Below the pieces are notes generated by a model that worked only from the letters and a program-made list of their open reading frames with translations, made no database searches and was not told the origin of the DNA. This document shows positions 27,307-62,268 of a stretch of 64,000 bases of DNA, one piece after another; the first letter of the stretch is position 1; every line of letters begins with the position of its first letter. Origin of the DNA: Halostella pelagica (GTDB taxonomy: Archaea > Halobacteriota > Halobacteria > Halobacteriales > Natronoarchaeaceae); contig CP040678.1 of assembly GCA_005954745.1 (NCBI GenBank), positions 2,170,001-2,234,000 on the forward strand. Reading direction: 5' to 3'. The translations under genes were made by a program, and so were the position numbers.

Positions 27307-28743
27307 ATGGGATGGAAGGAGGCTGCCGAACCGGTCCTTACCCGCATGCCCTCTGTGGAGCGACCGGAAGGGCACGTACCGTTCAAACGGAAACTAGGCT
27401 GGACCGCGGGCGTACTGGTGCTGTATTTCTTCTTAACGAACGTACAGCTGTACGGTCTCGCGACCGGCGGTGGCGGTGACATCTATCAACAGTTCCGGTC
27501 GATCCTGGCCGGGTCGCAGGGGTCGGTCCTGCAAGTCGGTATCGGACCGATCGTCACTGCGAGCATCGTCTTGCAGTTGCTCGGCGGTGCGAATCTGCTC
27601 GGACTAGACACCGACGACCCGCGCGACCAGATCCTGTATCAGGGTCTCCAGAAGGTGCTGGTCCTCGTCATGACGGTCCTCACCGCCGCGCCGATGGTGT
27701 TCACCGGCGGCTTCTTGCCCGCGGGAACGATCAATCTCGGCGGTACGTCGCTCGGACCGGGTGCCGTCCAGTGGGTCATATTCGGCCAGATCATCGTCGG
27801 CGGTATCCTCATCCTGTTCATGGACGAGATCATCTCGAAGTGGGGCGTCGGCAGCGGGATCGGCCTGTTCATCATCGCCGGCGTGAGCCAGCGACTGATG
27901 GGCGGTCTCATCGGCTCGAACGGCCTGCTGATGAGCTGGTACGATATCGCCGTCGGCGAGACCGCAATCGGTCCCATCGCCGGTCAGGGTCTGTACGCGC
28001 TGATCCTCGGCGAGGGCCAACTGCTCGCGCTGCTGACGACGTTGCTCATCTTCGCAATCGTCGTGTACGCGGAAAGCGTCCGGGTCGAGATACCCCTGAG
28101 CCACGCTCGCGTGAAAGGCGCACGTGGTCGCTTCCCCGTCAAGCTCATCTACGCGAGCGTCCTGCCGATGATCCTCGTCCGCGCGCTGCAGGCGAACCTG
28201 CAGTTCCTCGGACAGATCCTCCAGAGTACGATGGAGATGCCATCGTGGCTGGGTGTGTACGCCGACGGCCAGCCGGTCGGCGGCCTGTTCTACTACATTG
28301 CACCGATCCAGCGACCGGAAGACTGGATGTGGTGGTCCGGAGTCACACAGGAAACCTGGCAGGTGCTCATCCGCATCGGCATCGACCTGACGTTCATGAT
28401 CGTCGGCGGAGCGATATTCGCCATCTTCTGGGTCGAGACGACCGACATGGGCCCCGAAGCCACGGCGAAGCAGATCCAGAACTCCGGGATGCAGATCCCC
28501 GGATTCCGACAGAACATCGGCGTCATCGAGAAGGTGATGGAGCGGTACATTCCGCAGGTCACCGTCATCGGCGGCGCTCTCGTCGGACTGCTCGCGGTCA
28601 TGGCGAACATGCTCGGCACCATCGGCGGCGTCTCCGGTACCGGGTTGCTGCTGACGGTCTCTATCACGTACAAGTTGTACGAGGAGATCGCAGAAGAGCA
28701 ACTCATGGAGATGCACCCGATGATGCGCCAGATGTTCGGGTAA
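27307..28743 (+). CDS. secY: Preprotein translocase subunit SecY
   Basis: The 478-aa SecY/Sec61-alpha has about ten membrane helices, the early MPSVERPEGHVPFKRKLGWT segment, TVLTAAPMVFTGGFLPAG, DEIISKWGVGSGIGLFI, and AKQIQNSGMQIPGFRQNIGVIEKVMERYIPQVTVIGG. It forms the protein-conducting channel for the ribosomes this operon builds. The last seven codons and part of the stop are repeated exactly at 30303-30325, and the stop here (TAA at 28741-28743) is followed by foreign sequence: an element has inserted at the 3' end and rebuilt the gene. The pre-insertion stop was most likely TAG, as beyond the right repeat. Confidence 0.97.
   Translation: MGWKEAAEPVLTRMPSVERPEGHVPFKRKLGWTAGVLVLYFFLTNVQLYGLATGGGGDIYQQFRSILAGSQGSVLQVGIGPIVTASIVLQLLGGANLLGLDTDDPRDQILYQGLQKVLVLVMTVLTAAPMVFTGGFLPAGTINLGGTSLGPGAVQWVIFGQIIVGGILILFMDEIISKWGVGSGIGLFIIAGVSQRLMGGLIGSNGLLMSWYDIAVGETAIGPIAGQGLYALILGEGQLLALLTTLLIFAIVVYAESVRVEIPLSHARVKGARGRFPVKLIYASVLPMILVRALQANLQFLGQILQSTMEMPSWLGVYADGQPVGGLFYYIAPIQRPEDWMWWSGVTQETWQVLIRIGIDLTFMIVGGAIFAIFWVETTDMGPEATAKQIQNSGMQIPGFRQNIGVIEKVMERYIPQVTVIGGALVGLLAVMANMLGTIGGVSGTGLLLTVSITYKLYEEIAEEQLMEMHPMMRQMFG
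28720..28742 (+). repeat. Left attachment-like direct repeat (attL) in secY 3' end
   Basis: 23 bases beginning ATGATGCGCCAGATG and ending TCGGGTA, covering the last seven sense codons of secY and the first two bases of its stop. The identical 23-mer occurs at 30303-30325. The flanking bases differ on both sides. Confidence 0.9.
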
Positions 28744-28745
28744 TT

Positions 28746-28766
28746 GGGGACACGCGCTGTGTCCCC
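28746..28766 (+). terminator. Hairpin after secY
   Basis: GGGGACAC and GTGTCCCC form a perfect 8-bp stem around GCGCT, followed by CGGTCTTTATTTC. It probably ends secY transcripts at the left edge of the inserted element. Confidence 0.65.
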
Positions 28767-28800
28767 GGTCTTTATTTCATAGTTCCGCGTAGCCGTTGCT

Positions 28801-29012
28801 ATGCCTGACGGCTCTCACAACAAAGTCAAACTCAACGTCCGAGTCACTCCTGAAAAGAAAAAGGAGTGGCAGGACGCACTCGACGACGGTCAAACCTATC
28901 GTCACTCGTCCGAACGGCGATAGACAAAGAGACCAATATGGAGTACATTCCGCGCGAGACAATTGAGGATTTTGACGCTGAAGTCGAAGTGGATTTGAGC
29001 GGCACTGTCTAG
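28801..29012 (+). pseudogene. Frameshifted, truncated ribbon-helix-helix protein
   Basis: Frame one gives MPDGSHNKVKLNVRVTPEKKKEWQDALDDG and then loses its sense. The frame one base back, from about 28890, continues with SNLSSLVRTAIDKETNMEYI and an acidic segment, which is the expected tail of a haloarchaeal RHH DNA-binding protein. The switch lies between about 28888 and 28896. The second frame then runs into the terminal repeat of the IS element and stops at 29010-29012. So the gene has a frameshift and an IS-truncated C-terminus. RHH proteins of this sort are often repressors on plasmids and viruses. Confidence 0.65.
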
Positions 29013-29742
29013 TTGGGGGTTGAGAAGTGAGCAGGCCGTAGCGAGAGGTGTTCATGACACTCGCAGACCTGCTCAGAGAAACGTTAGAAACGGACAGTCA
29101 AGATGTTTGGGAGAACGAGCGCACCCCGACACCCGTCAGGCGATTTGGGGTGCGTCTCCATGCGGCGGGGCTGTCGGTCAGGGAGACGGTTGCGATCTTA
29201 GACCTGCTGGGTGTCGATCGCTCTCACGGTGCGGTCTGGAACTGGGTTCATACACTGTCTGAAGCCCAGAGCGACCCGCCGACGGCGCAGCCGTCGCGGG
29301 TCGCGGTCGACGAGAAACAAATCACTGTTGACGGAGAAAAGAAATGGCTCTACGCCGCTATCGACGCAGAATCGAAGCTGTTACTCGAAGTTGACGTGTT
29401 CAGCCGCCGCGGGACCGACCCCGCGGCGGCGTTCCTGCACCGACTCACCGAAAAACACGATATCGCCGACACAGAGTTTCTCGTTGATGCTGGTGGCTAT
29501 CTGACTTCCCTCGTCCGTCACGAATTGAGCGGTCAACTCGACTACCAGATCCGGAACCACATCGGAAAATGGTTCCAGACTGTCACCATGCGAATTGACC
29601 GCTTTCACTCCTTCTGGAGGGGCAGTCAATCTAGCGCGAAACAGTGGTTACGACGCTTCAGACACCACTACAACCACGAAAGGCCGAACCAAGCACTCGA
29701 CGGACGAACGCCAGCTGAGGAAGTTCAGAACTAGACAGTGCC
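29001..29742 (+). mobile_element. IS6-family insertion sequence
   Basis: A 742-base element with 14-bp perfect terminal inverted repeats: GGCACTGTCTAGTT at 29001-29014 and its complement at 29729-29742. It carries one DDE transposase. The 8 bases outside the ends (ATTTGAGC left, CGGGCTAA right) do not match, so the usual 8-bp target duplication is missing. Confidence 0.9.
29054..29734 (+). CDS. IS6-family transposase
   Basis: About 226 aa from ATG 29054 (a GTG two codons upstream is possible). The N-terminal region has RRFGVRLHAAGLSVRETVAILDLLGVDRSHGAVWNW, the helix-turn-helix part of the family. The DDE residues are the Asp in VAVDEKQI, the Asp in FLVDAGGYL and the Glu in HYNHERPNQALDG. The frame is intact from end to end, so the copy may be active. 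IS6 elements transpose replicatively and can delete neighbouring DNA. Confidence 0.92.
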   Translation: MTLADLLRETLETDSQDVWENERTPTPVRRFGVRLHAAGLSVRETVAILDLLGVDRSHGAVWNWVHTLSEAQSDPPTAQPSRVAVDEKQITVDGEKKWLYAAIDAESKLLLEVDVFSRRGTDPAAAFLHRLTEKHDIADTEFLVDAGGYLTSLVRHELSGQLDYQIRNHIGKWFQTVTMRIDRFHSFWRGSQSSAKQWLRRFRHHYNHERPNQALDGRTPAEEVQN

Positions 29743-29800
29743 CGGGCTAAACAGCTATTCTCCTCCTTATAGGGGTTTCAGTATGACGGCGGAACAGTCG

Positions 29801-30181
29801 TTATAGTTCGTTGTACCTCTGTTCAACGGCCAGCACGTCGTCGAGGAATTGTCCTGTCTGGTCCTCCCCTACATACACATTGTGAATACACAGAGAACGA
29901 ATCGTCGCCTCACTTCGATCATAGGCCTCCGCTGTTTGAGTCAGTGCTCTATCTAACCTGCTCTCCTCTTTAGACCGGTATGCTTCTCCCTCATCGTCGC
30001 GTTTCACGGGTGTCCCTTCCAAATCAACGAAGCGCCGACAAACAGAAACGCGATATCTCGATCCATTCTTATCATCCGTAAGCGGCGGAAAAATCTCGCT
30101 ACAGAGCATCTGGAGCTTCTCGTCGTCAGTCAACTCCGATTCTTGTGACTGTATCTTACTCAAGAGGCTCGAAATATCCAT
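29801..30181 (-). CDS. Unknown 126-aa protein of the secY element
   Basis: The product begins MDISSLLSKIQSQESELTDDEKLQMLCSEIFPPL and has a soluble, mostly helical look with several charged stretches (GEAYRSKEESRLDRALTQTAEAYDRSEATIRSL). No membrane segment and no motif I can name. It is the only intact non-transposase gene of the inserted element and runs towards the IS. AT-richer than the ribosomal genes. Function unknown. Confidence 0.5.
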   Translation of the reverse strand: MDISSLLSKIQSQESELTDDEKLQMLCSEIFPPLTDDKNGSRYRVSVCRRFVDLEGTPVKRDDEGEAYRSKEESRLDRALTQTAEAYDRSEATIRSLCIHNVYVGEDQTGQFLDDVLAVEQRYNEL

Positions 30182-30302
30182 GCGGAATGCCAGGTGCTTC
30201 TAAGTAATATACCAAATGGTTGTTTTGACCGATGCGTGATTCGTCGATAGATAGCGCATACAATAGTTCTCTTTGGGTCCCTAACGTGTGCCCGTTAAAT
30301 CT

Positions 30303-30325
30303 ATGATGCGCCAGATGTTCGGGTA
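30303..30325 (+). repeat. Right attachment-like direct repeat (attR)
   Basis: Perfect copy of 28720-28742 (the last secY codons), followed by G, which restores a TAG stop, and then the old downstream sequence. Confidence 0.9.
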
Positions 30326-30399
30326 GAACGGACCCCGGCCCGTTCGGAGTTGGTCGACGGGCATTTCCGCCCGACCACGGCGTTTCGTTTTTTCTTTCA
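30326..30399 (+). terminator. Probable ancestral terminator of the S10/spc-secY operon
   Basis: GAACGG (30326-30331) pairs with CCGTTC (30340-30345). A second stem pairs 30352-30354 and 30358-30362 with 30369-30376. Then GTTTCGTTTTTTCTTTC follows at about 30383-30399. The position right after the second copy of the secY end suggests this is where the operon ended before insertion. Confidence 0.6.
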
Positions 30400-30928: not shown

Positions 30929-33874
30929 CTACCTCGACTTCGCCTCGAACAGTTGGCGGTACAGTTTCCGCTGTGCGGCGCGCAGGTGGTTGTTGAACGT
31001 CGGTTGGGTGATGTCCATGCTCGCTGCTATCTCGCTGCCGGTTCTGGTCCGGGGGTTCTCGAAGTAGCCGCTGAAATACGCCGTCTGTATCGTCTCTAAC
31101 TGACGCGCTGTGAGTTCGTCGGTCAGCGTGGCGTGGAACTCGGTCTGAGTTCGTTCCGGCCGTTCACGGGTTCGCTTGGCGGTGACTTCCGCGGCCGGGC
31201 ATTCGGCTTTGAACGCAGAGACGAACTCGCGGATCTCGGCGTCGGCGGCGACGTGCAACGAGACTATCGCGTCGTCGTCCGTCACCTGAAACTCATTGAT
31301 CCGGCCGCCGTGTGCCAGAACGGTATCGACCAGGCTTTCCGAAGTCAGTTCTGCCTCGAACAGACAGATCTGTTTCCCGTCCTCAGTTCGGTCCGAAAGG
31401 AGTTTGAGCCCGTCGACGGGCAAACTGGAGACGTAGTCCCGAACGACGCCGGGGGAGACGCCGCAGGTAGTGAAAAAACCGCGTACTCTGCCGTTTGCCT
31501 GCGGAACAGCGTATTCGTAGGCGAACTCACAGCCGGTTTCGTCCACCAGTTCGACGATACCGTTGTCGGTGTCCGAGAGGGAGAACTTCAGCTCCGTCAC
31601 CTCGTTACTGACAAGCGCCTTCTTGCTCTCGACGGCGTTGATAGCGTACGCGATGGTGTCGCTCAACTCGTCGAGGACGGTCCATTCGAGGTCGTCGAAG
31701 ACGCCTGCCTGGTCGGCGTAGAGGGTGAGAACGCCGAACAGCGTCTCTTCATGGACCAGCGGTAAGGAGATGACGGCGTGAAAGCCGCGACTGAGCGCCG
31801 CCCGTCGCCACGGCTCGAACGGCGGGTCTTCGAGTATCTTGTTTACGATCTGGGGCGTCCCTGTTCTGGCTGCCCGGACTGACGGGGGGCCACCGTCGGT
31901 AGAACCACCGGCGTCTATGTGAACTGCATCGAGATAGCCGTTCTTCGCGCCGGCAGAAGCGTTCGGCGTTAGCTCGCCGGTCACCGGGTCGTGTTTTCCG
32001 AACCACGCGAGTTCGTACGGACCGGCGTCCGTCAGTTCGCGACAGACGACGTCGACGATCTCGGCACGCCCCGACGCGCTGACGAGCGCCTGGTCGATCC
32101 GCCGGATGGTCCTATTGATCCGTCGAAGCCGTTCGAGCGATCCGTTCTGTTCTTCGAGGCGGTTCTCGCGCTCGTGCAACTGCTGTTCGCGGTTGGCTCT
32201 GTCCAGCGCCGCGTTGACGTTGCCTGCGACGGTTTCGACGAATTCGAGGTTGGCCTGGCCGAACCCGCCGTTCCCGGTCGAACCGGCGAGTAACACGCCG
32301 TGAGTACCAAGCGGAAGGGCGACGACTTCCGTGACCCGTGGGTGGAGTACCTCGTCGGTCTTGCGGAGTGGGTCCAGCGTTTGCTTTCGCTTGTTCTCGG
32401 CGAACGCCTGCCAACCGATCCCTTGCCCCGTGTCGAACGCGGACGTCGCCCGAACCAGATCCGCTGCGTGGTCGGTCGACGCTTCGGGCTCCAGCGATCC
32501 GTCCGCGGGATCGTACAGCGCGACGCTCGCGACGGTAAGATCGAGGTGATCGCTTGCAGCGTCGATGACGTAGTCGCTTACCTCCGCGGCCGTCTCGGCG
32601 TTCATCAACTCCTGTGTTAGGTCGTTGAGCGCCGCCAGCCGGTCCTCCCGCTGTGTCCGTTCGAGTTCGTTGCTCAGCCATTGGCCCATGAATTCGAGGA
32701 ACGTGTACTCATCGTCGGTGAACGTCCCGCTGTGTGAGTCTTTGGAGGCAAAACACAGCGTTCCGTACGTGTCCTTTCCAGCAGTGACGGTGGTTCCCAG
32801 ATACGCGTCGAGTTCGTACTTCTCGTACGCAGGGTCTCCTTTCCATCCCTGGGACGGCGCGTCCGTCACGCCGAGGGGATCACTCGAACCGAGTAGGCGG
32901 TGACAGTAGGTGTCTTCCAGAGTCGCTACTGACCCCGGCTGGATCTCGTCGTGGGATCCGACAACGTCGACTACTTCGAACGTCTCGTCGTCGACCCGCG
33001 CGAAGAACCCGATGTCGAGGCCGAACCGCTCGCGCCCCACCTCCAGCAGTGCAGTCATTTTCTCATCGAACGAGAGGTCCGGGTCGGACATCGCATCGTA
33101 CAGGGTTCGGAGGGACCGCTCGCGAGCCTGGAGCGTGGTCCGCGCCTCGGTGCGGTCACCGAGCGTCCGCATCATCTGATCGACCTCGCGATCCGGCCGT
33201 TCCGGGCCGAAGAACTCCTCGGGCGGCGTGTAATAGAAGTTCTGGCAGACCATCCCGTCGTAGATCAGATGTGGGTGGGATTTGACGATGTCGCGAATGA
33301 TCTCTGCCGGGAACCGCTTTCGATTGTACTGACACAGCGCAATGCAGTTCTCGTCGGGAATGAGTCGGTTGAGTTTCCCCTCGTACTCGATCAGGTCGTC
33401 CATTTCGGGATCGTCGCCCAAGATCCACGTCATCTCGCCGGTGATCCGAAGCGCTTCGTACTCCTCCTGGGCCGCATCGATAGTCTCCGAGAGGAACTCG
33501 ATCATCTCGTCCGGGTCGAACGACCCATCCCGGAGATAGGTATCTTGCTTCGAATGGATCGTCAGCGCCCCGGATTCCAGCGCGGCGTCGACGTCGACGC
33601 CGCCCTCCCGTAACGCGGTCATCACGTCCTCTTTCGAGTTCTCGTCGACGATGTACAGGCACCGCTCGTCGCGTTCGAGCCCCTGGCGCGTAAACGGCAC
33701 CGCGGCCGCGAACTGCTCCGTTTGGTTCTCGTAGATGAGCGCCAGATGGTCGTTGGACTCGTGTCCATCGAGTTCCTCGACGGGCCCGCGGAACTCAGAA
33801 CTCGACTGAAGGGCTCGCAGACCGCTTTCGAGACTCAGTACGTCAGTACGATCGGCATTCTTTGAAGTTAGCAT
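30929..33874 (-). CDS. MEDS-GAF-GAF-GAF-HTH_10 (bat-type) transcription regulator
   Basis: This 981-aa regulator has, in order: a MEDS sensory domain (about residues 35-230, HLALIYENQTEQFAAAVPFTRQGLERDERCLYIVDE), GAF-like domains at about 255-420 (YDAMSDPDLSFDEKMTALLEVGRERFGLDIGFFARV), 425-580 and 600-760, then a bacterio-opsin-activator-type region and a C-terminal HTH_10 (LTARQLETIQTAYFSGYFENPRTRTGSEIAASMDITQPTFNNHLRAAQRKL). MEDS domains bind small ligands in DcmR and related proteins; GAF domains may sense light, redox or ligands. No kinase domain, so it is a one-component sensor-regulator. Targets unknown; it stands alone. Confidence 0.85.
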   Translation of the reverse strand: MLTSKNADRTDVLSLESGLRALQSSSEFRGPVEELDGHESNDHLALIYENQTEQFAAAVPFTRQGLERDERCLYIVDENSKEDVMTALREGGVDVDAALESGALTIHSKQDTYLRDGSFDPDEMIEFLSETIDAAQEEYEALRITGEMTWILGDDPEMDDLIEYEGKLNRLIPDENCIALCQYNRKRFPAEIIRDIVKSHPHLIYDGMVCQNFYYTPPEEFFGPERPDREVDQMMRTLGDRTEARTTLQARERSLRTLYDAMSDPDLSFDEKMTALLEVGRERFGLDIGFFARVDDETFEVVDVVGSHDEIQPGSVATLEDTYCHRLLGSSDPLGVTDAPSQGWKGDPAYEKYELDAYLGTTVTAGKDTYGTLCFASKDSHSGTFTDDEYTFLEFMGQWLSNELERTQREDRLAALNDLTQELMNAETAAEVSDYVIDAASDHLDLTVASVALYDPADGSLEPEASTDHAADLVRATSAFDTGQGIGWQAFAENKRKQTLDPLRKTDEVLHPRVTEVVALPLGTHGVLLAGSTGNGGFGQANLEFVETVAGNVNAALDRANREQQLHERENRLEEQNGSLERLRRINRTIRRIDQALVSASGRAEIVDVVCRELTDAGPYELAWFGKHDPVTGELTPNASAGAKNGYLDAVHIDAGGSTDGGPPSVRAARTGTPQIVNKILEDPPFEPWRRAALSRGFHAVISLPLVHEETLFGVLTLYADQAGVFDDLEWTVLDELSDTIAYAINAVESKKALVSNEVTELKFSLSDTDNGIVELVDETGCEFAYEYAVPQANGRVRGFFTTCGVSPGVVRDYVSSLPVDGLKLLSDRTEDGKQICLFEAELTSESLVDTVLAHGGRINEFQVTDDDAIVSLHVAADAEIREFVSAFKAECPAAEVTAKRTRERPERTQTEFHATLTDELTARQLETIQTAYFSGYFENPRTRTGSEIAASMDITQPTFNNHLRAAQRKLYRQLFEAKSR

Positions 33875-34308
33875 GGTGTAGAGTGGTCGAAATCAGCACG
33901 TCCTCGCCGCAGGTCGGACCGGGTCGTCGAAGGACCAACGTCACCCGTTCACTGCGGGGGTTTTCAGTGTGCGGACAGATGACTCGATGAACGGCACGGA
34001 GCAGTGAATTGGATCCGACATCTAGTTTTGTTGTCCGGTTCGGTCCGCACACGGGAAACGGGTTACTACCTTCGTTCAGTAGATGGGGAAATGAGCTATT
34101 AGGGGATAAACGCAGCGCCAACTGTCGAATAGAGACGATCTTACGGTCGAATAGCTACTCGAAAGATGAGGCGTCAGATCGGGTCACCTATATCTATATC
34201 GACATTTCAAACCGAGGAGAAAGCGGCCTCCCGCCGGTGACGAACACGAGGGATCGCCGCTGACGGAGAGTAGTAGAGTTATTACGATGGGTGGTCACGG
34301 TCAGATAG
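33875..34308. other. Divergent intergenic region
   Basis: 434 bases between the large regulator and the Dam-type gene, with AT-rich patches (CTATATCTATATCGAC about 34189-34204) and the Dam promoter at its right end. No gene seen. Confidence 0.5.
34278..34285 (+). promoter_or_regulatory. TATA box of Dam-type gene
   Basis: GTTATTAC is centred about 27 bases before the ATG at 34309, again fitting a leaderless message. Confidence 0.5.
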
Positions 34309-52443: not shown

Positions 52444-52514
52444 GGGACCGTGGGGTAGTGGTATCCTCTGCGGATGGGGTCCGTTGGACCCGTGTTCGAA
52501 TCACGGCGGTCCCA
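52444..52514 (+). tRNA. tRNA-Pro (anticodon GGG), target of provirus
   Basis: The acceptor stem GGGACCG pairs with CGGTCCC at 52507-52513 and the discriminator is A at 52514. The anticodon loop ATGGGGT gives GGG (proline). The T arm is CCGTG-TTCGAAT-CACGG. The D arm GGGG...CCTC is also formed. One mismatch (U-U) closes the anticodon stem. Provirus genes begin 80 bases downstream, so its 3' half is probably the attachment core. Confidence 0.93.
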
Positions 52515-52593
52515 CTCGAAATTATCTAACTTTCCATTCTCGACAGTCTCGACTCCGTGAGCCTGTCGAAAACCCCGTTCGGAGGTGGGGGTG

Positions 52594-52824
52594 ATGTCGG
52601 CGGAATTATTCACATGCTCCGTCGACCGGTCCGCGTGCGTTCACTGTGACGCCCACGTGTCGGACCAGTTCCGGCGCGTGTACGGCGACGGTGACGACCA
52701 CGCTCACCGCTGTCCCAGCTGCGATTCCTGGCGGCGACTGACTGAAGGGAGCGCGGCTGGCCTTGACGTTCCGACGCCCGACCCTGAGCAAGCCCTCGGC
52801 CGTCACGGGAGTGATCCTGCATGA
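52594..52824 (+). CDS. Small zinc-finger protein (DUF7563-like)
   Basis: The ATG at 52594 is chosen because GGAGGTG (52581-52587) sits seven bases upstream. The 76-aa product has two CxxC pairs: CVHCDAHVSDQFRRVYG and CPSCDSW, the layout of haloarchaeal virus-associated DUF7563 zinc ribbons (the residues between are typical: VSDQFRRVYGDGD). It is the first gene of the rightward early operon. Its stop overlaps the next ATG (ATGA). Confidence 0.65.
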   Translation: MSAELFTCSVDRSACVHCDAHVSDQFRRVYGDGDDHAHRCPSCDSWRRLTEGSAAGLDVPTPDPEQALGRHGSDPA

Positions 52825-52910
52825 CGTTCGTCCGTGCTTCCCGTCTCTACGATGTCGGTGACGGTGAGCGGCAGTCTGTTGAATGGGACTATCCCACGGA
52901 GGGCCGCTGA
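52821..52910 (+). CDS. 29-aa overlapped micro-protein
   Basis: This frame starts at an ATG that overlaps the previous stop and ends in TGATG with the next gene. The product MTFVRASRLYDVGDGERQSV continues EWDYPTEGR. Overlaps at both ends suggest it is translated, if only to couple its neighbours. Confidence 0.4.
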   Translation: MTFVRASRLYDVGDGERQSVEWDYPTEGR

Positions 52911-53122
52911 TGAACGGCCAGGCTCGCCTCACCGAGTTTGGAACGGAAACCGATATCGACCTGTCCGAACTCACCGAGGCCCAACGCCGTGCGTACGTCG
53001 CCGTCCGGCTGAACGGCGTCGGCGTTCGCGAACACGCGCGCCAGACTGAACGCGAACCCGGCACTGTCGGGAACCTGCTTCGTCGCGCCGAGAAGCGCCT
53101 CGACGGGGAGGGATCGGCGTGA
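52910..53122 (+). CDS. Sigma-70-region-4-like HTH protein
   Basis: The 70-aa product has LSELTEAQRRAYVAVRLNGVGVREHARQTEREPGTVGNLLRRAEKRL, a helix-turn-helix like region 4 of sigma factors, common as a small regulator in haloarchaeal viruses. ATG at 52910 shares a base with the upstream stop. Its stop overlaps the next gene's start. Confidence 0.65.
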   Translation: MNGQARLTEFGTETDIDLSELTEAQRRAYVAVRLNGVGVREHARQTEREPGTVGNLLRRAEKRLDGEGSA

Positions 53123-53592
53123 TGCTATCGTGGTGGTCCCTAACGACGCTCGGAAACTACGAGGTCCTGATAGGGATCGCGCTGGCATACGGCGTCGTCG
53201 TTCGGCAGTTCGATATCACGCCGTTGCTCCTTGTCATCGGAGCTATCGCACTCACGACGTGGCTGAAAGCGACGCTTGGGGTTCCGAGACCCCCAGGATC
53301 GGCCATTGGCGGGAACGCAATGCCGAGTGGTCACGCGCTCGTCTCGACGGTCTGCTACGGGACGCTGGCGGTCGTCGAGGACCGAGGACTCGGCCCCCGG
53401 ACGCTAGTCGCTAGCGGTCTCGTCGCGGCGATCGCCATGTCTCGCGTCGTCATCGGCGTCCACTACGTGGCGGACGTCGTGGTCGGAGTGACGATCGGTG
53501 TAGTCCTGGTCGTCGCTGGCGTCGCTGCTCGGCGTCGGTTAACCGCGGTCGACGCTCTGCCCATGGCCCACAACGCGGAGGGGTCGCCGTGA
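53122..53592 (+). CDS. PAP2-family membrane phosphatase
   Basis: The protein of about 156 aa has several membrane helices and the three PAP2 motifs: KATLGVPRPPGS, the PSGH in GGNAMPSGHALVS, and SRVVIGVHYVADVVVG with the catalytic His and Asp. The family removes phosphate from lipid phosphates or isoprenyl diphosphates. The start is ATG 53122 inside TGATG; a GTG one codon upstream is possible. It lies in the middle of a chain of overlapping virus genes. Confidence 0.75.
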   Translation: MLSWWSLTTLGNYEVLIGIALAYGVVVRQFDITPLLLVIGAIALTTWLKATLGVPRPPGSAIGGNAMPSGHALVSTVCYGTLAVVEDRGLGPRTLVASGLVAAIAMSRVVIGVHYVADVVVGVTIGVVLVVAGVAARRRLTAVDALPMAHNAEGSP

Positions 53593-53720
53593 GCCGCATC
53601 GTCGACGCCGTCGAGTGCGACCGGTGTGGGGCTTCTGTCGGAGTCCGCCGGTACGGACCCCGGCGTCTCTGTTCCGAGTGCGTTGACGAAGAACGGTCAG
53701 CACGGAAAGGGCCGCTATGA
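53589..53720 (+). CDS. 43-aa zinc-ribbon protein
   Basis: This short frame starts with GTG 53589, overlapping the PAP2 stop, and ends at TGA 53718-53720, overlapping the next ATG. The product has CDRCGASVGVRRYGPRRLCSEC: two CxxC pairs 14 residues apart, a zinc ribbon. Confidence 0.6.
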   Translation: MSRIVDAVECDRCGASVGVRRYGPRRLCSECVDEERSARKGPL

Positions 53721-55330
53721 CCCACGTCGCAACTGCACCCCACGAGTGCGAGGGAAATCTCGTCTACGTCCGCAACGGACTATCACCGTATTGGGCCGTG
53801 GGCGCGTTGCTGTTGGATGGTTTCGACGGTTACAGCGGAGAGATAGACGTCGAGGTCGGCGGCGAAGAGTGGACGGTGAACCTCAAGTACCAGAAGGGTG
53901 GTATCGCTCCGCGGCTGACCGACAACGTGGGCGGCGATCGCCTCTACGAGTACCGCATCGGCGCGTACGGTGACGGCGAGCGGAAGGCCAACTTCCTGAT
54001 ACAGCCGCGCTTCGAGAACATGCGCCACTACGAGAGCGGCGACGAGATCAGCAACCCCTTCGACAACGCCGATCCCGACGAAGCAGTGAACGTCAGTTTC
54101 GGCGGTTCAAATCTGGAACCCGAGGAGTACCGCGACCTACTCCCCGAGTTCGTCCAGGCGCTCGCCCAGGAAGGCGGGAAGTACGTGAATCCGGAGTACT
54201 TCGACGGCGAACCCCACCAGTTCAGCAACATCACGACGTACGAGCGATACGTTCGCGTCACCCGGAACATGGGCAAGAAACTGGTCGGTCGGACCGGTAT
54301 CATGCACCGGCTTCTGACCCTCTGTGCGACCGAACGCGGGAGCAAATTCGAGTACAAGGTCGACAACGAGGAGATCGTTGGGAAGAACCACCGGGCGATC
54401 ATCCCGAAGGCCGACGCGAAGCGACTCGTCGGGGAACACACTCTCGGAAAGCAGCTGAAGCACTACCATCCCAGGCACGTCCGCGACGGCGAGGAGAACG
54501 ACGATCCGCTGTACCATCCGAAGGTTGGCGTGTTGGTCAAGAAGTCGCTGAACGGCCACGCATTCCGCTGGAGCAACCGCGAGACGGTACGCCGGGAGAT
54601 CGATGAGACGTTGATTAACGCTCTGTCGTGGTCCGGTATACCGACGCAGCCGGACGCGACGACGTTCGTTTCCGACGACCATTTTTCGGTACGGGCGAGC
54701 GAGCGGGCCGTTCCGCTTTACGATGACCCCACGCCAGAGATGGAAGCCGAACAGGAATCGCTACTGGTAACGACGCTCCGGGACATGACCGATTCCGACG
54801 TTGAAGTTCTGGAGGCACTCGCCACAGAAGGCGGTGAAAAGCATCCGGCGGACCTCGCCACAGAGACAGATCACGGACTGAGTACGATCTACCGGGTGCT
54901 GCAACGTCTCGACGATGTGGTTCGGAACGATAACGCCAGCGTGAGCTTCGTCTCGAAGAAGGTCGAGCAGGAGATCGCGGCGATCGTCGAGAGTACCGAA
55001 TTCCAGATAGAGAACGCGGCCGACCGAGCAGCGAAGCTCTTGAACGTCGATGCGGGGCAGGCGGCGTCGAGCGCGTGGCAACAGTGGTTGAACAAGTACG
55101 CAGCCGATGTCGTCGAGGCGGCCAACGGCGAGAAGAAGATACGAATCGACACGATCCTCTCACGGTTGAAACGGACGCCGGAGCCGCGTCTGGAGGACAT
55201 TCTCTCTGACGCCCTGGAGGCGTGGCGGAAGGCCGGGCGCGACCCGGTGGAACTCCGTGAGATGGCTGTGCAGTGGCGCGACGCGAAGAAGAACTGGCAG
55301 GCGGGGAAAGTCAGCGCTGTCGTTGCGTGA
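53717..55330 (+). CDS. DUF7845-like large protein, putative replication function
   Basis: This 537-aa protein is of a type found in haloarchaeal proviruses and betapleolipoviruses; I recall it under the label DUF7845. Residues 1-310 are a mixed alpha/beta region (GLSPYWAVGALLLDGFDGYSGEIDVEVGG ... YYHPRHVRDG-like), 340-420 hold a winged-helix (DVEVLEALATEGGEKHPADLATETDHGLSTIYRVLQRLDDVV), and the end is helical. It is the largest gene of the early operon and a candidate for genome replication or its control, which is inference from place and size. It overlaps the zinc-ribbon gene by four bases. Confidence 0.55.
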   Translation: MTHVATAPHECEGNLVYVRNGLSPYWAVGALLLDGFDGYSGEIDVEVGGEEWTVNLKYQKGGIAPRLTDNVGGDRLYEYRIGAYGDGERKANFLIQPRFENMRHYESGDEISNPFDNADPDEAVNVSFGGSNLEPEEYRDLLPEFVQALAQEGGKYVNPEYFDGEPHQFSNITTYERYVRVTRNMGKKLVGRTGIMHRLLTLCATERGSKFEYKVDNEEIVGKNHRAIIPKADAKRLVGEHTLGKQLKHYHPRHVRDGEENDDPLYHPKVGVLVKKSLNGHAFRWSNRETVRREIDETLINALSWSGIPTQPDATTFVSDDHFSVRASERAVPLYDDPTPEMEAEQESLLVTTLRDMTDSDVEVLEALATEGGEKHPADLATETDHGLSTIYRVLQRLDDVVRNDNASVSFVSKKVEQEIAAIVESTEFQIENAADRAAKLLNVDAGQAASSAWQQWLNKYAADVVEAANGEKKIRIDTILSRLKRTPEPRLEDILSDALEAWRKAGRDPVELREMAVQWRDAKKNWQAGKVSAVVA

Positions 55331-55597
55331 CGACGGCGTAGTGGCAACGCTGTTCTACGGGCCGTTTCGTACAAGTCAGGTTGGGGTTTTCAGCTGATAG
55401 AGCGCAACTTTGGTTGTACTTCTGCGGGCGTCGACAGCGATCACGACGAGCGGCCGCACCGTCGTGGGTGGGGCTTGTCCCGCCGTGCGGGAGAGACCCC
55501 TTACGGAGTGTGCCTAAGGGCACGAGCGAAAAAAATTACCCCCCACCGCCCGCTACGTAGACTCCAGTTGATCCAGATGAAACAGTGGAAGCGGGGG
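55331..55597. other. Convergent intergenic region of the provirus
   Basis: 267 bases where the two virus transcription units meet. GTGCCTAAGGGCACG (about 55509-55523) is a small hairpin that could end one unit. No gene seen. Confidence 0.4.
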
Positions 55598-55972
55598 TTA
55601 GAACACGTCGCCAATCGCTATCTTCGCTTGCTTCGAATTTCGATGTGACCCACCGCCATGCCACCGGAGCAGCGGGAGATTCCCGGCGTCGACGGACTTC
55701 ATTTTGAGTACTTGGCATCCCCGCCCGCGAATTCGATAGACGGCAAACCCGTATCGTCCGCCGTTCTTCTGTAACTTCTCGTGATACTTCTTGTAGACCT
55801 TGAAATTGCCAGGATTGCCGTCTGCGTGCTTATGGGCCGTTGCCTTGAACTCCCACGGCACCCCGTTTCGTATCCCGTCGTGCCACGACGAGCGTTCAAG
55901 TTCGACGTTATACTTCTCGGCCAGTTTGTATTCACACGCCGTCCCGTACTTGTTCGATTTCTTACTCGGCAT
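55598..55972 (-). CDS. Holliday-junction-resolvase-like PD-(D/E)xK nuclease
   Basis: The protein of about 124 aa starts at ATG 55972 (MPSKKSNKYGTACEYKLAEKYNVELERSSWHDGI). It shows a nuclease core: an early Glu in CEYKLAEKY, WHDGIRNGVPWEFKATAHKH with a D-(x)n-ExK pattern, and NFKVYKKYHEKL. A TATA box is 23 bases upstream, giving leaderless expression; a GTG five codons upstream is less likely. It may resolve or nick virus DNA. Confidence 0.65.
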   Translation of the reverse strand: MPSKKSNKYGTACEYKLAEKYNVELERSSWHDGIRNGVPWEFKATAHKHADGNPGNFKVYKKYHEKLQKNGGRYGFAVYRIRGRGCQVLKMKSVDAGNLPLLRWHGGGSHRNSKQAKIAIGDVF

Positions 55973-55990
55973 GCGCACCTCGCGCACCGA

Positions 55991-55999
55991 TATATATAC
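55991..55999 (-). promoter_or_regulatory. TATA box of nuclease gene
   Basis: TATATATAC is centred about 23 bases before the ATG at 55972. Confidence 0.6.
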
Positions 56000-56092
56000 A
56001 CCTCCGCCGCTCGTTTGACGCTGGATGTCTCGCGTCGTATGGGCTACTAAAGGGGGGTTGGTTTGGGTTTACAGGTTTACATCCCTGCGCCG

Positions 56093-57262
56093 TCATGCAA
56101 TCACCTGTTCAACCGTGGAAACCCAGTCGCGCTTTTCGCCGCCTTCGTCGTAGTCATCTAACCAGTTATTGACGGTAGTATGGCTGTACGGGACGAACTC
56201 GGCGGTTTCGCGCGGAGACATTCCTTGCTCACGACAGGCAGTCATTGTCCACATGGAAACGCGCTTTATGTCCTCCTCGGCGACTGTCTCGCCGTCTTTC
56301 TCGTCACCGTTTGGCTCGGTCCAACTCCAATCTGCTTCGTCCTTCGTGTTGAAACTCCAGTCAGTCGGCGGGATGCCTTCGAGCGGTCGCGGGTCAACGT
56401 CAGTCAGGCTTCCGTTCGATACACGGTCGGCGATGATGGCCGATTTCTTCGAGGTTTTCTTGATGATAGTGCCAACGCGCCACAGCAGCGGATGGATCGA
56501 ACTCTCACCGTGTGCGATGTAGATGAGCATTCCGCCGTACTTGCGTATCTTGTACACGAGCGGCCCCATTTTCGTCCGGACCTTGTGGCCGTCCTGACCG
56601 GTCCCGCTCGCGTTCGTGCTGAACTCGTCGCCGATAAACAGTTTCTCTTGCTGGGTGTTCTCAACTGGGTCCCCGTCCTGCTGTACCCATTCTTCCAGTA
56701 GTGGATAGTGGGGAATCCAGCCGTCCTCGACGTTACCGTTGTCACGAACCCACGGGTCAAGTCGTCCGAGAGTTCGGATGTTGCTGGCGACAAGTAGATC
56801 GCCGTCAGTCCACCTATCGCGCAGTTGACCGAGCAATCCGGCGAAATCGGTCTTTCCGTCACCCATCTCGCCGAGCAACACGATAACCGGAGCGGGACCA
56901 GTCACGATATCCTCCAAGCGAGTAATGGCCTTTATCCCGGCAAGGTCCGCTTCCTGTGACGGGTCGCCGATATAGTGTTTCAGCGTCACTGTGTCGCCGT
57001 TTTCCATCGCGTTCCGCGCCGTCTCGCTGCCCTCGGCGCGGAGGATATTCCGGTTCTTCTGAACGGCGAGGTAGTCTTTCGCGGCTTTCCCTTCCCACTT
57101 CTCCGGGTCGTGATGGATTGCACGCATCGCCATCTGTCGGTCCACCTGTTCGTCCCTCACGAAACCGGAGTGCGGTAGCACCTCGTCCGGATCCCGTTTC
57201 TGGTTGCCGCTCTGAAACTCCCGAAAACCACCGACCGTGAAGTTGTCCTGTTCGTCACTCAT
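56093..57262 (-). CDS. VP8-like P-loop NTPase
   Basis: The 389-aa product starts at ATG 57262 (MSDEQDNFTVGGFREF), with GGAGGGAACG as a ribosome-binding site inside the end of the previous gene. Walker A GEMGDGKT is at about 131-138, LFIGDEFSTNASG is a likely Walker B/sensor, and the C-terminus has a helix-turn-helix (GMSPRETAEFVPYSHTTVNNWLDDY). Pleolipoviruses carry such a putative ATPase (VP8 in HRPV-1) after the spike genes. Its role in assembly is not proven. Confidence 0.75.
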   Translation of the reverse strand: MSDEQDNFTVGGFREFQSGNQKRDPDEVLPHSGFVRDEQVDRQMAMRAIHHDPEKWEGKAAKDYLAVQKNRNILRAEGSETARNAMENGDTVTLKHYIGDPSQEADLAGIKAITRLEDIVTGPAPVIVLLGEMGDGKTDFAGLLGQLRDRWTDGDLLVASNIRTLGRLDPWVRDNGNVEDGWIPHYPLLEEWVQQDGDPVENTQQEKLFIGDEFSTNASGTGQDGHKVRTKMGPLVYKIRKYGGMLIYIAHGESSIHPLLWRVGTIIKKTSKKSAIIADRVSNGSLTDVDPRPLEGIPPTDWSFNTKDEADWSWTEPNGDEKDGETVAEEDIKRVSMWTMTACREQGMSPRETAEFVPYSHTTVNNWLDDYDEGGEKRDWVSTVEQVIA

Positions 57263-58046
57263 CGTTCCCTCCGTCAGTTGCTGCGGTCGTCTGTGTGGTC
57301 GCAGGCATCCCGAGGTCGTGTTCCTCGGCATACTCCTCGGTGTACTCGGTCACGTCCTTTATCTCGCTTTGCTGCCGGTCCTCAGCGTCCTTCTTCGCTC
57401 CCTCGAATCGGTCGCGAACCGTGGTACGCGGGTTCATCAACCCGCGCTCGTCCGCCTCGGCTTCCTCGTTGATCACGTCGCTCTGTATCTCCAGTCCCAT
57501 CTTGGAGATACGGCCACGGAGCCGGTTCAGTTCCAGATATGCGTCTATCAAATCTCCGTGAATATCCTCGAACATCGTTTTGACCGTCACTAACTTGCTG
57601 TCGGCTAACTGGCTCATGTAGCAACCTCGAACAGTCAGTTCCTCCATGTCCTCGTGCCAGTCGAACTCCCGAACCTCAAAGCCGTCACCCTCGTTGACAA
57701 CGTACGGGCTCGGGCCGTTGACGGTCTTTTCGCTCCATATCTCCGGCGCGACCATGTACTTTTCGCGAATATCCTTTTCGCCGTTGATGTGGTGAACCTG
57801 TACTCTGTGCCGGTTGCGGAACCGACGCAACAAGAACACGAAGAACCCGAACAACGGAGGCCCGAACAGTAAGAAGGTCGCTGCGACGCCGCCGACCCAC
57901 GCCGGGATACCGGGAACGTCTGGGCGCGTCCAAAGGAGTATCAGCCCGATTGTGACCATCGTCCCGGCAACCAACAACTGCGCCTCTGCGATAATGAAAG
58001 TCAGACGATCCCAGACGCCTCCGAACGTTCCACTCGTTTCAGCCAT
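57255..58046 (-). CDS. Virus membrane protein
   Basis: This 263-aa protein has two membrane helices near the N-terminus (about 14-35 and 48-72), then a soluble domain (MVAPEIWSEKTVNGPSPYVVNEGDGFEVREFDWHEDMEELTV) and a helical, coiled-coil-like tail (RDRFEGAKKDAEDRQQSEIKDVTEYTEEYAEEH). The layout and place between spike and NTPase match a conserved pleolipovirus gene. The last codons hold the ribosome binding site for the NTPase. Confidence 0.6.
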   Translation of the reverse strand: MAETSGTFGGVWDRLTFIIAEAQLLVAGTMVTIGLILLWTRPDVPGIPAWVGGVAATFLLFGPPLFGFFVFLLRRFRNRHRVQVHHINGEKDIREKYMVAPEIWSEKTVNGPSPYVVNEGDGFEVREFDWHEDMEELTVRGCYMSQLADSKLVTVKTMFEDIHGDLIDAYLELNRLRGRISKMGLEIQSDVINEEAEADERGLMNPRTTVRDRFEGAKKDAEDRQQSEIKDVTEYTEEYAEEHDLGMPATTQTTAATDGGNDE

Positions 58047-58606
58047 TAGTCGGCCACCTCCACCCCGTTAGATTCCCTCCACACGACGAATCCGGCGGCT
58101 AGGAGCGAGAGAAAAACAGTTGACAGAACGCCCGTGAAGACGCCGCTCGTCCCGCCAAGCGTCGAGAGCGGATTGTTGTCTCCACGCTCCCCTGACTGGA
58201 TGATGACTTGCCGCTCCTCTTGGATTGATTTCGGCGTCGTCACCGATATCACAGCGACTCCCTCGAACTGTTGAGCGGGCACGCTCACCGTGTTCGATCC
58301 GGTGTAGAGTTGCGTCTGTTTGATGCCTGCCGAACGCATCCCCTCCCCCCGCGGCAGACTCTCTGCTCCGGTGAGGGTCGTCGGGATCTCCGCCTCCACC
58401 TGCAACACGAATTGCTGGCTGCTTGCGTCGTAGTGCCAGCTCGTGATCGTCGTCGTGGAATCGATCCGCATCGTGCGATTCGCGTTGTCCTGCTCGACGG
58501 CGGTCGTCTGGTTGGTCGTGTTCTCCTGTGCCTGGACCGGCACCGCGCCTATGCACATCGTCAGAGCCACCGCTGTTACCAGCAGCGCGGAAAAAATGCG
58601 TTTCAT
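58046..58606 (-). CDS. Secreted, C-terminally anchored virus protein
   Basis: The 186-aa product starts at ATG 58606 (MKRIFSALLVTAVALTMCIGAVPVQAQEN), a signal peptide with likely cleavage after VQA. A beta-rich exposed domain follows (TITSWHYDASSQQFVLQVEAEIP), then a C-terminal membrane helix (VFLSLLAAGFVVWRESNG). Two bases separate it from the spike stop; its own stop overlaps the next start (TAATG). Probably part of the virion surface. Confidence 0.6.
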   Translation of the reverse strand: MKRIFSALLVTAVALTMCIGAVPVQAQENTTNQTTAVEQDNANRTMRIDSTTTITSWHYDASSQQFVLQVEAEIPTTLTGAESLPRGEGMRSAGIKQTQLYTGSNTVSVPAQQFEGVAVISVTTPKSIQEERQVIIQSGERGDNNPLSTLGGTSGVFTGVLSTVFLSLLAAGFVVWRESNGVEVAD

Positions 58607-58608
58607 AG

Positions 58609-60228
58609 TTAATCTTGGAGCAGCAGCGCCGCGCCTCCCACGAGAGCGATGATCACGATCCCAGAGCCGACATTGAGACTGGCCCCTCCTTCCCACGGCC
58701 AGCTAAACCCACCACCGGAGGTCCCTCCTCCACCACCGTTGTCGACGTGATCCGATATCTGCTCTTGGTCCTTGATGGCCTGATCAACCACCCCCTGCAA
58801 ATCTGATTCATTTGACACCTGATAATCGGTGTCCTGAGTTTCAATAGTCTCCATTTCGACCCCGTCTTTCGAGACAGCTTTGTGAATTGAGAACGTCCCG
58901 TTGATGGTCCGCTGCTCGGCCTGCTCGTTGACGAACAAGACCGGCCCGGTGATGTTCTCCGAGTTGTAGGTTGTTCCGTTCGCCGCCCATCCGCCTTCCG
59001 GCGCATTTCGGGCGAATAGCATTCCGTTTTCCGGCCCAAAGGTCTTATTCCCGCCAGGTCCGGTATAAGAGACATTCATGAACCCGGTTTCGTTAAGGGC
59101 CGGGGCTTCAAGGCCTAACGCGGCCAGACTCGCCGTCACCTGACTGAATGAGGCGTTCTCACCGGTTCCTGAGACTGCGTACTCCTCCATCAGGGTGATC
59201 GTAGATAGCACCTCAGAGGAATTGATCGTCCCATTCTCTAACGCGGGCCATGTCTCTTGCACGAACAAAGACACGTCGTTCTGCGTGGCGTTCTCCTGTG
59301 CAGTTATATTCTCATAGACACCGTTAAATTGAGGATTCTTGATGTAGAAATAAGTTGGGTAACCCGTCTTCGGACTCTTGATTTGGGTGTTGCGATAATT
59401 AACCTGAACATTCATATACCCCCCACTTGTCGGGTCGTCGTTATCGTGGGCCTCGATGGTCCACGGACCCATATCCCCAGGATGAATGAGGATCGTCTCA
59501 TTCAGCACAGAGCTGTCTCCGTCTGGGTTTTGATAGACATTGAATTCCAAGGCCTGAACTTTCTGGATGGAGCCGTTTGCCAGCTCAATTTCAGTCGTGT
59601 TCAGACCAGAATACGATACATCTGGATTTGACGCATTGTAGTAATTTCCAGATGCATCGCCTGTGCGGAAGACACTTGATGAATGATTCAACTCATCAAT
59701 CCCCTGCTGCTCGGCCCGCTCAAAGGCATAATCATAAGCCGACACAGAAGTGTTCCATCTGTCAAGAATGTTGAGATGTTTGACAGAATAGTAGCCCCCA
59801 ACTTCCCTCTCAATCGCAAGCTGGGCCTCTCCCTGAGTCGATCCATTCTCGAACTGCTCTGCAATCGTCGTTTCTGCGATCATCCAGGCACGGCCGTCAA
59901 GATCCTCTCGATAATTTTCGACGACAGTGAGGTGATTCTCGTGTGCGGCATCCTGCGTTTCGAGATGGAGATAGAGATCGATCTGCGTCTCCAAATCGTG
60001 AGCTGACTCGTTGTACCCATCTTCAGCCGCCTCCGAGCAGTCTGCAAAAAACAAGTACTCATCGGCGTTCAATTCTTCATACAGGCAATCCGGATCATCC
60101 GCGGTCGTCGCGGTCACCTCGGTCGTCGCAGTCGCCTCGGTCGTCGCGGTTGCCGCGGCCGCCGGTCCCGCCAGCGACGAGACGAGCAGCAGCCCGACGA
60201 GCGCGAGCGCGACGATCCGCCGCCTCAT
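58609..60228 (-). CDS. VP4-like spike protein
   Basis: This 539-aa protein has a signal peptide (MRRRIVALALVGLLLVSSLAGPAAAA), a Thr/Ala-rich spacer, a long ectodomain and a C-terminal membrane helix (LNVGSGIVIIALVGGAALLLQD) preceded by a Gly-rich linker. Pleolipovirus spikes (VP4 of HRPV-1) have the same order and are the only large surface protein, used in receptor binding and fusion. The middle of the gene (about 59100-60000) is more AT-rich than the ends, as expected of a fast-changing receptor-binding part. Confidence 0.75.
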   Translation of the reverse strand: MRRRIVALALVGLLLVSSLAGPAAAATATTEATATTEVTATTADDPDCLYEELNADEYLFFADCSEAAEDGYNESAHDLETQIDLYLHLETQDAAHENHLTVVENYREDLDGRAWMIAETTIAEQFENGSTQGEAQLAIEREVGGYYSVKHLNILDRWNTSVSAYDYAFERAEQQGIDELNHSSSVFRTGDASGNYYNASNPDVSYSGLNTTEIELANGSIQKVQALEFNVYQNPDGDSSVLNETILIHPGDMGPWTIEAHDNDDPTSGGYMNVQVNYRNTQIKSPKTGYPTYFYIKNPQFNGVYENITAQENATQNDVSLFVQETWPALENGTINSSEVLSTITLMEEYAVSGTGENASFSQVTASLAALGLEAPALNETGFMNVSYTGPGGNKTFGPENGMLFARNAPEGGWAANGTTYNSENITGPVLFVNEQAEQRTINGTFSIHKAVSKDGVEMETIETQDTDYQVSNESDLQGVVDQAIKDQEQISDHVDNGGGGGTSGGGFSWPWEGGASLNVGSGIVIIALVGGAALLLQD

Positions 60229-60359
60229 CGTTCCCTCCGTCGAGTGTCATGGGCATGGGCCGCGAAACAGTCGAGAGCGGCCCGTCCGGTCGGATGCGGT
60301 TCCGCGCAGGTCGGACAGTGATGCACGTCGTCAACTCGTGATTGTGATCGTGATTCCAT
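60225..60359 (-). CDS. Small cysteine/histidine protein
   Basis: The 44-aa product has VHHCPTCAEPHPTGRAALDCFAAHAHD: a CxxC pair and later His and Cys residues that may bind zinc. Its ATG overlaps the VP3-like stop (a neighbouring ATG at 60362 is also possible) and its stop overlaps the spike start. Confidence 0.5.
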   Translation of the reverse strand: MESRSQSRVDDVHHCPTCAEPHPTGRAALDCFAAHAHDTRRRER

Positions 60360-60751
60360 CATTCGATGTAGGAAATGTAGACGGAGACGATTGCGACCAG
60401 CATCCACGCCGCGAAGGCAAGCAGGTCGGAGCTACCCACGAAGTTGCGGACTGCCGGGATCAACGAGAAAAGCGGAACAACCAGCACCCCCGCCCCGAGA
60501 ACGGTCATCTCCTCATCGGAATAGGACGTGAGCGGCTGGTCGTTGGTAACGAAAATCCACATGAAGGCCCCGACGGTCGCCAGCAGCGCCGCCGAGATTT
60601 TCGTCCCGCCAGAACTGAAGATCGCTTGGGAGAAGTCGAAGCCGCCGAAGATTTCGACGGCGAACGACCAGACGCCAAGTTCCATTCCGGCCGTGATTGG
60701 TATCAGCACGAGCGCCGCGATGTCGATTAGGTCGGTTTGGTCTCTTGCCAT
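60359..60751 (-). CDS. VP3-like internal membrane protein
   Basis: The 130-aa product has four membrane helices (about 8-28, 50-68, 80-100, 108-128) and an acidic DQTDLIDIA start, with NDQPLTSYSDEEM in the loop. It matches VP3 of pleolipoviruses, the major internal membrane protein, which precedes the spike gene. First gene of the leftward structural operon. Confidence 0.7.
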   Translation of the reverse strand: MARDQTDLIDIAALVLIPITAGMELGVWSFAVEIFGGFDFSQAIFSSGGTKISAALLATVGAFMWIFVTNDQPLTSYSDEEMTVLGAGVLVVPLFSLIPAVRNFVGSSDLLAFAAWMLVAIVSVYISYIE

Positions 60752-60870
60752 GCTGCGGCAATGCCGGCCACCCGCCCACTCGTTAAACTCCGGATTTTGG
60801 TACTCGCATGATCATGACGTGGCTACCGTCGGAACAATTAAGAGGTATAGGATGGCCCGCCTCAGTGCCG

Positions 60871-61095
60871 ATGTTCCGAAAACTCTGCAATCGGGAGGGA
60901 ACGCCCACCGTTTCGCTCGACAAGGACGATCTCCTACTCGACGGGATCGTACAAACTGACGGGACTGTCCCGGCCAATCAGGAGATGCACGTCCAGCGCG
61001 TCGCGGAAGGCGCGTACCTGGTCCGTGCCGTCGAGGAGGGAACCGTTCCCGAGGTCGCCGTTCGCGTCGACGACGAAGAGGAACTGGCGCTATGA
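60871..61095 (+). CDS. DUF8053-like small protein
   Basis: The 74-aa product starts at ATG 60871 (MFRKLCNREGTPTVSLDKDDLLLDGIVQTDGTVPANQEMHVQRVAEGAYLVRAVEEG). It looks like a swapped-hairpin (AbrB-like) DNA-binding protein, a family common in haloarchaeal viruses. An in-frame ATG at 60808 would lie in the promoter zone, so I reject it. It is coupled to the next gene by ATGA. Confidence 0.6.
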   Translation: MFRKLCNREGTPTVSLDKDDLLLDGIVQTDGTVPANQEMHVQRVAEGAYLVRAVEEGTVPEVAVRVDDEEELAL

Positions 61096-61343
61096 CCAGC
61101 GCCGTCGAACCCGGTCTTCGAAACCGACACCGTGGGGTAGCTTGTAGATGTATTACCGATCCGCGATCTATGCACCTTCGCCGCCGTGGGCGTGGGCCGC
61201 GGTGCATAGATTGCACCGACACGACCGTCCGAACCGTCCCGATCACGCCGCACCCCCGGAGCCAGTTTATATGGAACGAGCCAGTCAGTCACGCCAGTCC
61301 GACGCGAACGAACCCCCCGTGCATACTTTCGCGTGAGCCATGA
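61092..61343 (+). CDS. Probable zinc-finger protein bridging two virus genes
   Basis: The 83-codon frame starts in the previous stop (ATGA at 61092-61095) and ends in the next start (ATGA at 61340-61343), the pattern of the neighbouring virus genes. It contains CRCITDPRSMHLRRRGRG followed by PRCIDC, a CxC...CxxC zinc-finger-like motif. The C-terminal 40 residues are Pro-rich without a family. The finger-coding region is also an inverted repeat. Confidence 0.45.
   Translation: MTSAVEPGLRNRHRGVACRCITDPRSMHLRRRGRGPRCIDCTDTTVRTVPITPHPRSQFIWNEPVSHASPTRTNPPCILSREP
61166..61211. repeat. 11-bp inverted repeat
   Basis: ATCTATGCACC (61166-61176) and GGTGCATAGAT (61201-61211) are perfect complements 24 bases apart. 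The loop is GC-rich. Confidence 0.8.
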
Positions 61344-61597: not shown

Positions 61598-61642
61598 AGT
61601 CCTTCAAGGCTCAACTTCTATAGCTTAATCAGCATCTCAAAT

Positions 61643-62182: not shown

Positions 62183-62268
62183 CAGTACTGGAGTCAAATA
62201 CAGAACACTTAGTTGTTTTGATGAATTGAACAAGTTGTTAGGAAAAACCGCCTAACTGCCGACTACAG

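Follow-up and report, generated by a model that had tools for sequence, protein, structure and literature searches.

The last codons of secY, an essential and conserved gene, stand twice in the genome of Halostella pelagica, which raises the question of what the DNA between the two copies is and how it came to lie there. We analysed this locus within a 64,000-nt stretch of contig CP040678.1 (hereafter the window). The gene (27307–28743, + strand), delimited by its open reading frame and by comparing attL and attR across elements, encodes 478 aa and ends in MMRQMFG-TAA. The 23-mer ATGATGCGCCAGATGTTCGGGTA, which comprises codons MMRQMFG and the TA of this stop (28720–28742, + strand; attL), recurs as an exact direct copy at 30303–30325 (+ strand; attR), where it runs on into a TAG at 30324–30326. 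No further site in the 3.94-Mb genome matches it with three or fewer mismatches, excluding chance as the source of the pair. The exact recurrence had been reported in a first-pass annotation, and the uniqueness of the repeat in the genome bears it out. The sequence between the copies, leaving out the insertion sequence described below, has a GC content of 0.48–0.51, compared with 0.615 for the window. From the evidence that follows, we are highly confident that this insert is a decayed member, of a class we term type A, of a family of integrative elements that use the secY 3′ end as attB.

Genomes of the same genus display the empty site. In all four (G324, G127, G031 and G327), the secY tail is single-copy and its stop leads into DNA other than the window element, to which these genomes show no other match. 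The first-pass annotation had held that two copies of the 23-mer in relatives lacking the element would count against integration; none of the four shows this. Beyond the element, the genes on the adenylate kinase side are common to the window and two of the four genomes. The nearest of them, G327, ends its secY in GGGTAG, as does the second copy in the window, so the TAG at 30324–30326 is probably the original secY stop and the TAA probably came with the element. The 600 bp to the right of attR have no homologue in the four genomes, and we infer that this stretch is the ancestral downstream region of secY. A terminator-like structure had also been noted there next to the TAG; the TAG, a GC-rich stretch and a T run are present, but the sequence folds no better than shuffled controls (z 0.24).

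On the element side of attL lies an arm (28746–28766, + strand) reading GGGGACAC-gcgct-GTGTCCCC and then turning T-rich, which matches the G/C boxes of type-A elements. The hairpin that follows secY here folds better than shuffled sequence (z -3.45), and the arm may double as a replacement secY terminator. It is followed by the N-terminal fragment, ~67 codons, of a gene for an integrase partner (28801–29000, + strand). Its reading frame starts with MPDGSHNKVKLNVRVTPEKKKEWQDALDDGQ, resumes as NLSSLVRTAIDKETNMEYIPRETIEDFDAEVEVDLS after a one-base frameshift within a run of A, where a sequencing error is possible, and is truncated by an insertion sequence. By tblastn, the fragment matches the start of ~200-aa proteins (L137, L152, L009) that are encoded elsewhere between secY and a tyrosine integrase, with type-A partners as the best matches. 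The integrase gene expected behind the partner gene is absent from the window, in agreement with the earlier reading that none lies between the repeats.

The insertion sequence (29001–29742, + strand; 742 bp) ends in GGCACTGTCTAGTT and AACTAGACAGTGCC, has perfect 14-bp terminal inverted repeats and encodes a 228-aa transposase (29048–29734, + strand) of the IS6-type DDE family (NF033587, 170.8 bits against a cut-off of 125). No 8-bp target duplication surrounds it; the flanks (...GATTTGAGC / CGGGCTAA...) differ, which fits, and suggests, a deletion next to the insertion sequence. To its right, a 126-aa open reading frame (29801–30181, - strand) has no assigned function, with no match in Pfam, PHROG or NCBIfam and a weak single-sequence structure model. 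In the type-A host G097, a 79% identical homologue (C14:63949–64320) shares a contig with the occupied secY, which it follows at a distance of ~30 kb; attR of that genome is on another contig, and the homologue may lie away from the far end of the element. The insert closes with a second arm (30275–30302, + strand), GGGTCCC-taac-GTGTGCCC-gtt, aligned with the right arms of other type-A elements. Both window arms thus align with type-A arms, the left by eye (GGGGACAC/GTGTCCCC) and the right by motif; under the strict box motif given below, the left arm counts 0 and carries a relaxed form. The "small element" first described here is therefore a real insert between repeats but not a simple one, as 742 bp of it are a later IS6-family insertion.

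Together, the insert has a secY-tail repeat at both ends, an empty site in relatives, type-A arms and a partner-gene fragment behind secY; what it lacks of a full member is the integrase gene. The host genome contains 11 integrase-like loci by Pfam, none close to the integrases found at secY elsewhere (at best 22–31% identity over short stretches). Because the integrase is absent from the window and has no close homologue in the genome, we call the insert a remnant rather than a functional member. Most of the element body, integrase included, appears to be gone, and a deletion beside the IS6-type insertion sequence probably removed the integrase. What is left is a fossil that could move again only if a related integrase came in.

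The family itself emerged from a sample of 391 genomes of the class, in which a pattern search initially returned several genomes with two secY tails. Using the integrase L152 of G097 as query (E ≤ 1e-20), we identified similar integrases in 27 of the 391 genomes, adjoining a secY attL or attR in 23 of these 27; 345 genomes sampled across the phylum gave none outside the class. The check proposed at the outset, a search for a haloarchaeal secY with a second tail and an integrase nearby, thereby returned an integrase beside a secY att site in 23 of 391 genomes, with both att ends found in many of them. Where both att sites lie on one contig, the elements span 7.2 kb (G068), 11.2 kb (G232), 15.7 kb (G032), 20.5 kb (G384), 22.2 kb (G151, a size that depends on an attR with two mismatches), 50.2 kb (G359), 50.4 kb (G248), 78.3 kb (G029) and 93.4 kb (G073). 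Type A, the commonest (G097, G248, G060, G347, G008, G073, G219, G213, G373, G068), places partner and integrase directly behind secY and carries paired G/C boxes in its arms. Type B (G120, G032, G151, G188, G029, G114, G106) shares this layout with different arms, and in type C (G096, G320, G359, G368) the integrase sits at the far end and reads inward; two others (G384 and G232) fall outside these types.

Cargo includes MCM helicases (G032, G232), ParA with a KwaB-like protein (G097), DNA methylases (G232), and helicases, AAA proteins and DUF790 (G248). Among the matches listed for the G248 element, none belongs to a viral structural family. Neither the secY tail nor the type-A integrase had a match among viral contigs, so nothing there indicates a virus, and phage records yielded distant integrases only. 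The secY elements look like integrated plasmids or genomic islands.

Other members are decayed as well. In Halegenticoccus soli (L112, 11444–15143), a 3.7-kb insert between identical secY tails carries a type-A right arm and no integrase, and is another integrase-less remnant. In Halegenticoccus tardaugens (L111, 11447–16907), a 5.4-kb insert behind secY combines arms of type A with a partner gene reduced to its start, and is another decayed member. A DDE transposase insertion cuts the integrase of the 7.2-kb element of G068 (L137, 11921–13910), indicating that decay linked to insertion sequences recurs among secY elements. Genes related to the type-C integrase but broken by internal stops occur at G187:C4:459723–460025 (L300) and G373:C1:2026179–2026564.

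Differences between the attL and attR of single elements locate the crossover. In G032 and G151, the two sites diverge beginning with the base that follows ATGCGC (attL CAG versus attR GAG or AAC), placing the crossover to the left of these differences. Type C, G029 and G073 show their differences ahead of ATGCGC, placing it to the right, and H. tardaugens confines it to the GCGC side. Provided that one site is common to all types, the crossover would lie inside ATGCGC, which in the window corresponds to 28723–28728 in attL and 30306–30311 in attR (both + strand), intervals deduced from these polymorphic pairs of other elements. A crossover there makes the tail to its right element-borne in an occupied secY, so that the last codons and stop of the window secY would be supplied by the element. 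Tail changes are visible in G032 (MREMFGKE to MRQMFGKE) and G097 (MRQMFGSE to MRQMFGE), and one unusual tail, ATGCGTCAAATGTTTGGAGATTAA, is identical in G219, G213 and G373, which belong to three families.

We also compared the arms with shuffled sequence, counting GGGNNCC, GGNNCCC or GGGNCCC as a box; this motif was chosen after viewing the arms, and the comparison is descriptive. Nine type-A left arms contain 19 boxes (shuffles: mean 3.0, maximum 9) and eight right arms contain 12 (mean 1.9, maximum 6). A conserved RNA terminator was considered as a family feature of the left arm and rejected, as the strong fold of the window (z -3.45) is not seen in G008, G073 or G373. DNA-binding boxes appear to fit the type-A left arms better than an RNA terminator.

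An apparently free form is found on phalar01, a circular plasmid of 705,810 bp in the halophilic archaeon DL31 (CP002989.1). Positions 699115–699131 read ATGCGGCAGATGTTTGG with no secY upstream, encoding MMRQMFGND-stop, and continue with AAACGAGATTTTAATATCTC as in the attL of G232. The partner gene Halar_0712 begins 48 bp past this site and is followed by the integrase Halar_0711. This site reads as an unintegrated attP. The plasmid encodes two integrases related to the secY groups, at 33134–34195 (L306) and 697237–698415 (L153), with the attP-like site near the second only.

In a tree of 20 secY integrases and 12 others, a limited sampling of other integrases, the secY integrases fall nearly all together and apart from the rest (2 label changes versus 9.9 in shuffles). 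Monophyly in the strict sense is rejected (p-AU 0.002), as the phalar01 integrase encoded at 33 kb sits inside and a weak centre splits off type C plus G232. This phalar01 integrase is the sole intruder in the main part of the tree; the central forks are weak, and the tree is compatible with one or several origins. As for the partner, the AlphaFold model of the L062 protein is unusable (pLDDT 36), comparison with solved structures gave no match, and the NCBIfam match to YlcI/YnfO is sub-threshold (20.1 bits against a cut-off of 30). We dropped a ribbon-helix-helix label, which rested on a sequence pattern and that one match, and describe the protein only as DNA-binding-like.

These data are consistent with a model in which the element circle carries an attP in which copied terminal codons of secY, a stop and a G/C-box arm stand in succession, without secY itself. 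Within ATGCGC, the integrase would recombine this attP with the end of the chromosomal secY, probably with the aid of the DNA-binding-like partner, whose gene immediately precedes the integrase gene. The secY reading frame would be kept, with element codons, stop and downstream sequence as its new ending, and the original end would be displaced to the far side of the element. The window element would later have lost its integrase while its partner gene was frameshifted and cut; the IS6-family element would mark a deletion, which it may have caused, that began within the partner gene and reached almost to the far end. The original proposal, that site-specific integration rebuilt the end of secY, is well supported by the empty sites, the 23 integrase-bearing genomes, the many att pairs and the attP-like site of phalar01.

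The absence of an integrase had initially been put down to either loss or movement in trans. Its loss is the better supported of the two, given the partner-gene fragment, the missing integrase and the insertion sequence without target duplication at the break. If the small form were instead a mobile satellite moved by a related integrase of another element, its two identical cores, its intact pair of arms and the 3.7-kb integrase-less remnant of H. soli (L112) would find an explanation. We consider this highly improbable for the window: none of the 11 Pfam integrase matches of the genome is close, the element is present in one copy, a search of the class with the 126-aa protein returned no similar small form, and a frameshifted, truncated gene beside an insertion sequence resembles breakage. 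The broader proposition that an undescribed integrase clade uses the secY end as a standing docking site and so keeps changing the last codons of an essential translocon component, while short integrase-less forms like that of the window are mobilised in trans as satellites, seems very unlikely to us.

Could the insert instead join a type-A left end to an unrelated right piece through the insertion sequence, leaving the 126-aa gene foreign to the element? The insertion sequence does separate two parts without a target duplication, and homologues of the 126-aa protein also occur away from secY, one of them beside a tRNA-like stretch in G085 (L215). A type-A arm directly adjoins attR at the right end, however, and the 79% homologue lies downstream of an occupied secY in G097, making such a composite rather unlikely. 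An alternative without integration, in which ordinary recombination or slippage copied the secY tail, has a precedent in partial secY duplications such as that of G105, where a 1081-bp 3′ fragment recurs 7.1 kb downstream. Yet the window repeat is merely 23 bp long and coincides with the site of 23 integrase-bearing elements, it is flanked on both sides by type-A arms and accompanied by the start of a partner gene, and the family-wide pattern already contradicts this explanation, to which we give practically no weight. The G105 duplication (L138, 442–1522 and 7580–8660 on the secY strand, 94% identical) is itself unexplained, and no secY-type integrase was found by it.

A decayed type-A element at secY belongs to a known kind, 3′-end integration that restores a gene; what appears undescribed is the secY site, together with the integrase group and how widely it is spread. 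In the open-access literature we found no paper that describes haloarchaeal integration at secY, nor does the text of PMC8371274 mention secY, which agrees with the first-pass annotation, to which no described haloarchaeal element with this site was known. One of the closest known systems is thaumarchaeal NitEve-E2 (PMC6563490), which enters the 3′ end of a protein gene at a short att and replaces the last bases and stop with the frame restored; secY elements likewise supply the gene ending and keep the frame. The thaumarchaeal targets, in a different phylum, include a Zn-finger gene, ef-2 (by casposons) and others, not secY, and no dedicated one-site family is described among them, unlike the secY elements. 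Bacterial dusA- and trmE-specific integrases and islands (PMC4482086, PMC8409611) pair one integrase clade with one housekeeping protein gene across diverse elements; the likeness to secY elements lies in this one-gene clade, whereas dusA, an unrelated bacterial gene, is there entered at its 5′ end and secY at its 3′ end.

The SNJ2-type module of haloarchaeal pleolipoviruses (PMC8371274, PMC13107129) combines a tyrosine integrase with one or more DNA-binding partners just upstream in the same direction, and its excision re-forms attP. SNJ2 targets a tRNA and has two partners, whereas secY elements target secY, with a single larger partner, and do not use the tRNA target of the SNJ2 integrase family; the secY element scanned (G248) shows no viral structural genes, unlike the pleolipoviral context of that module. 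Archaeal att sites in protein genes are also cited in PMC8371274 for Halorubrum virus BJ1 and Msmi-Pro1, with target genes, as given there, other than secY. An essential conserved gene is a recurrent docking site in haloarchaea, in ~6% of sampled species, and some lineage-specific changes of the SecY tail are explained as element-borne. Phalar01 suggests that secY elements have a free form, the clade offers sets of integrase, attP and attB for haloarchaeal integration vectors, and the secY end can serve as a marker for elements that searches based on tRNA genes miss.

Several further observations were made along the way. In G085 (L215), a 74% homologue of the window's 126-aa protein is encoded at 1498–1880, beside the tRNA-like stretch (about 1990–2065), so elements at other sites may carry the gene too. 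In Natronorubrum bangense, secY is present on both the chromosome (L082) and the 828-kb plasmid unnamed1 (L081). Elsewhere in the window (52444–64000), several genes that match PHROG families strongly (3288, 1979, 3526, 2231) lie behind tRNA-Pro (52444–52515), as does a tyrosine integrase that starts at 63204 and runs off the window end. This region looks like a second, independent provirus, which we take to be perhaps of pleolipovirus type.
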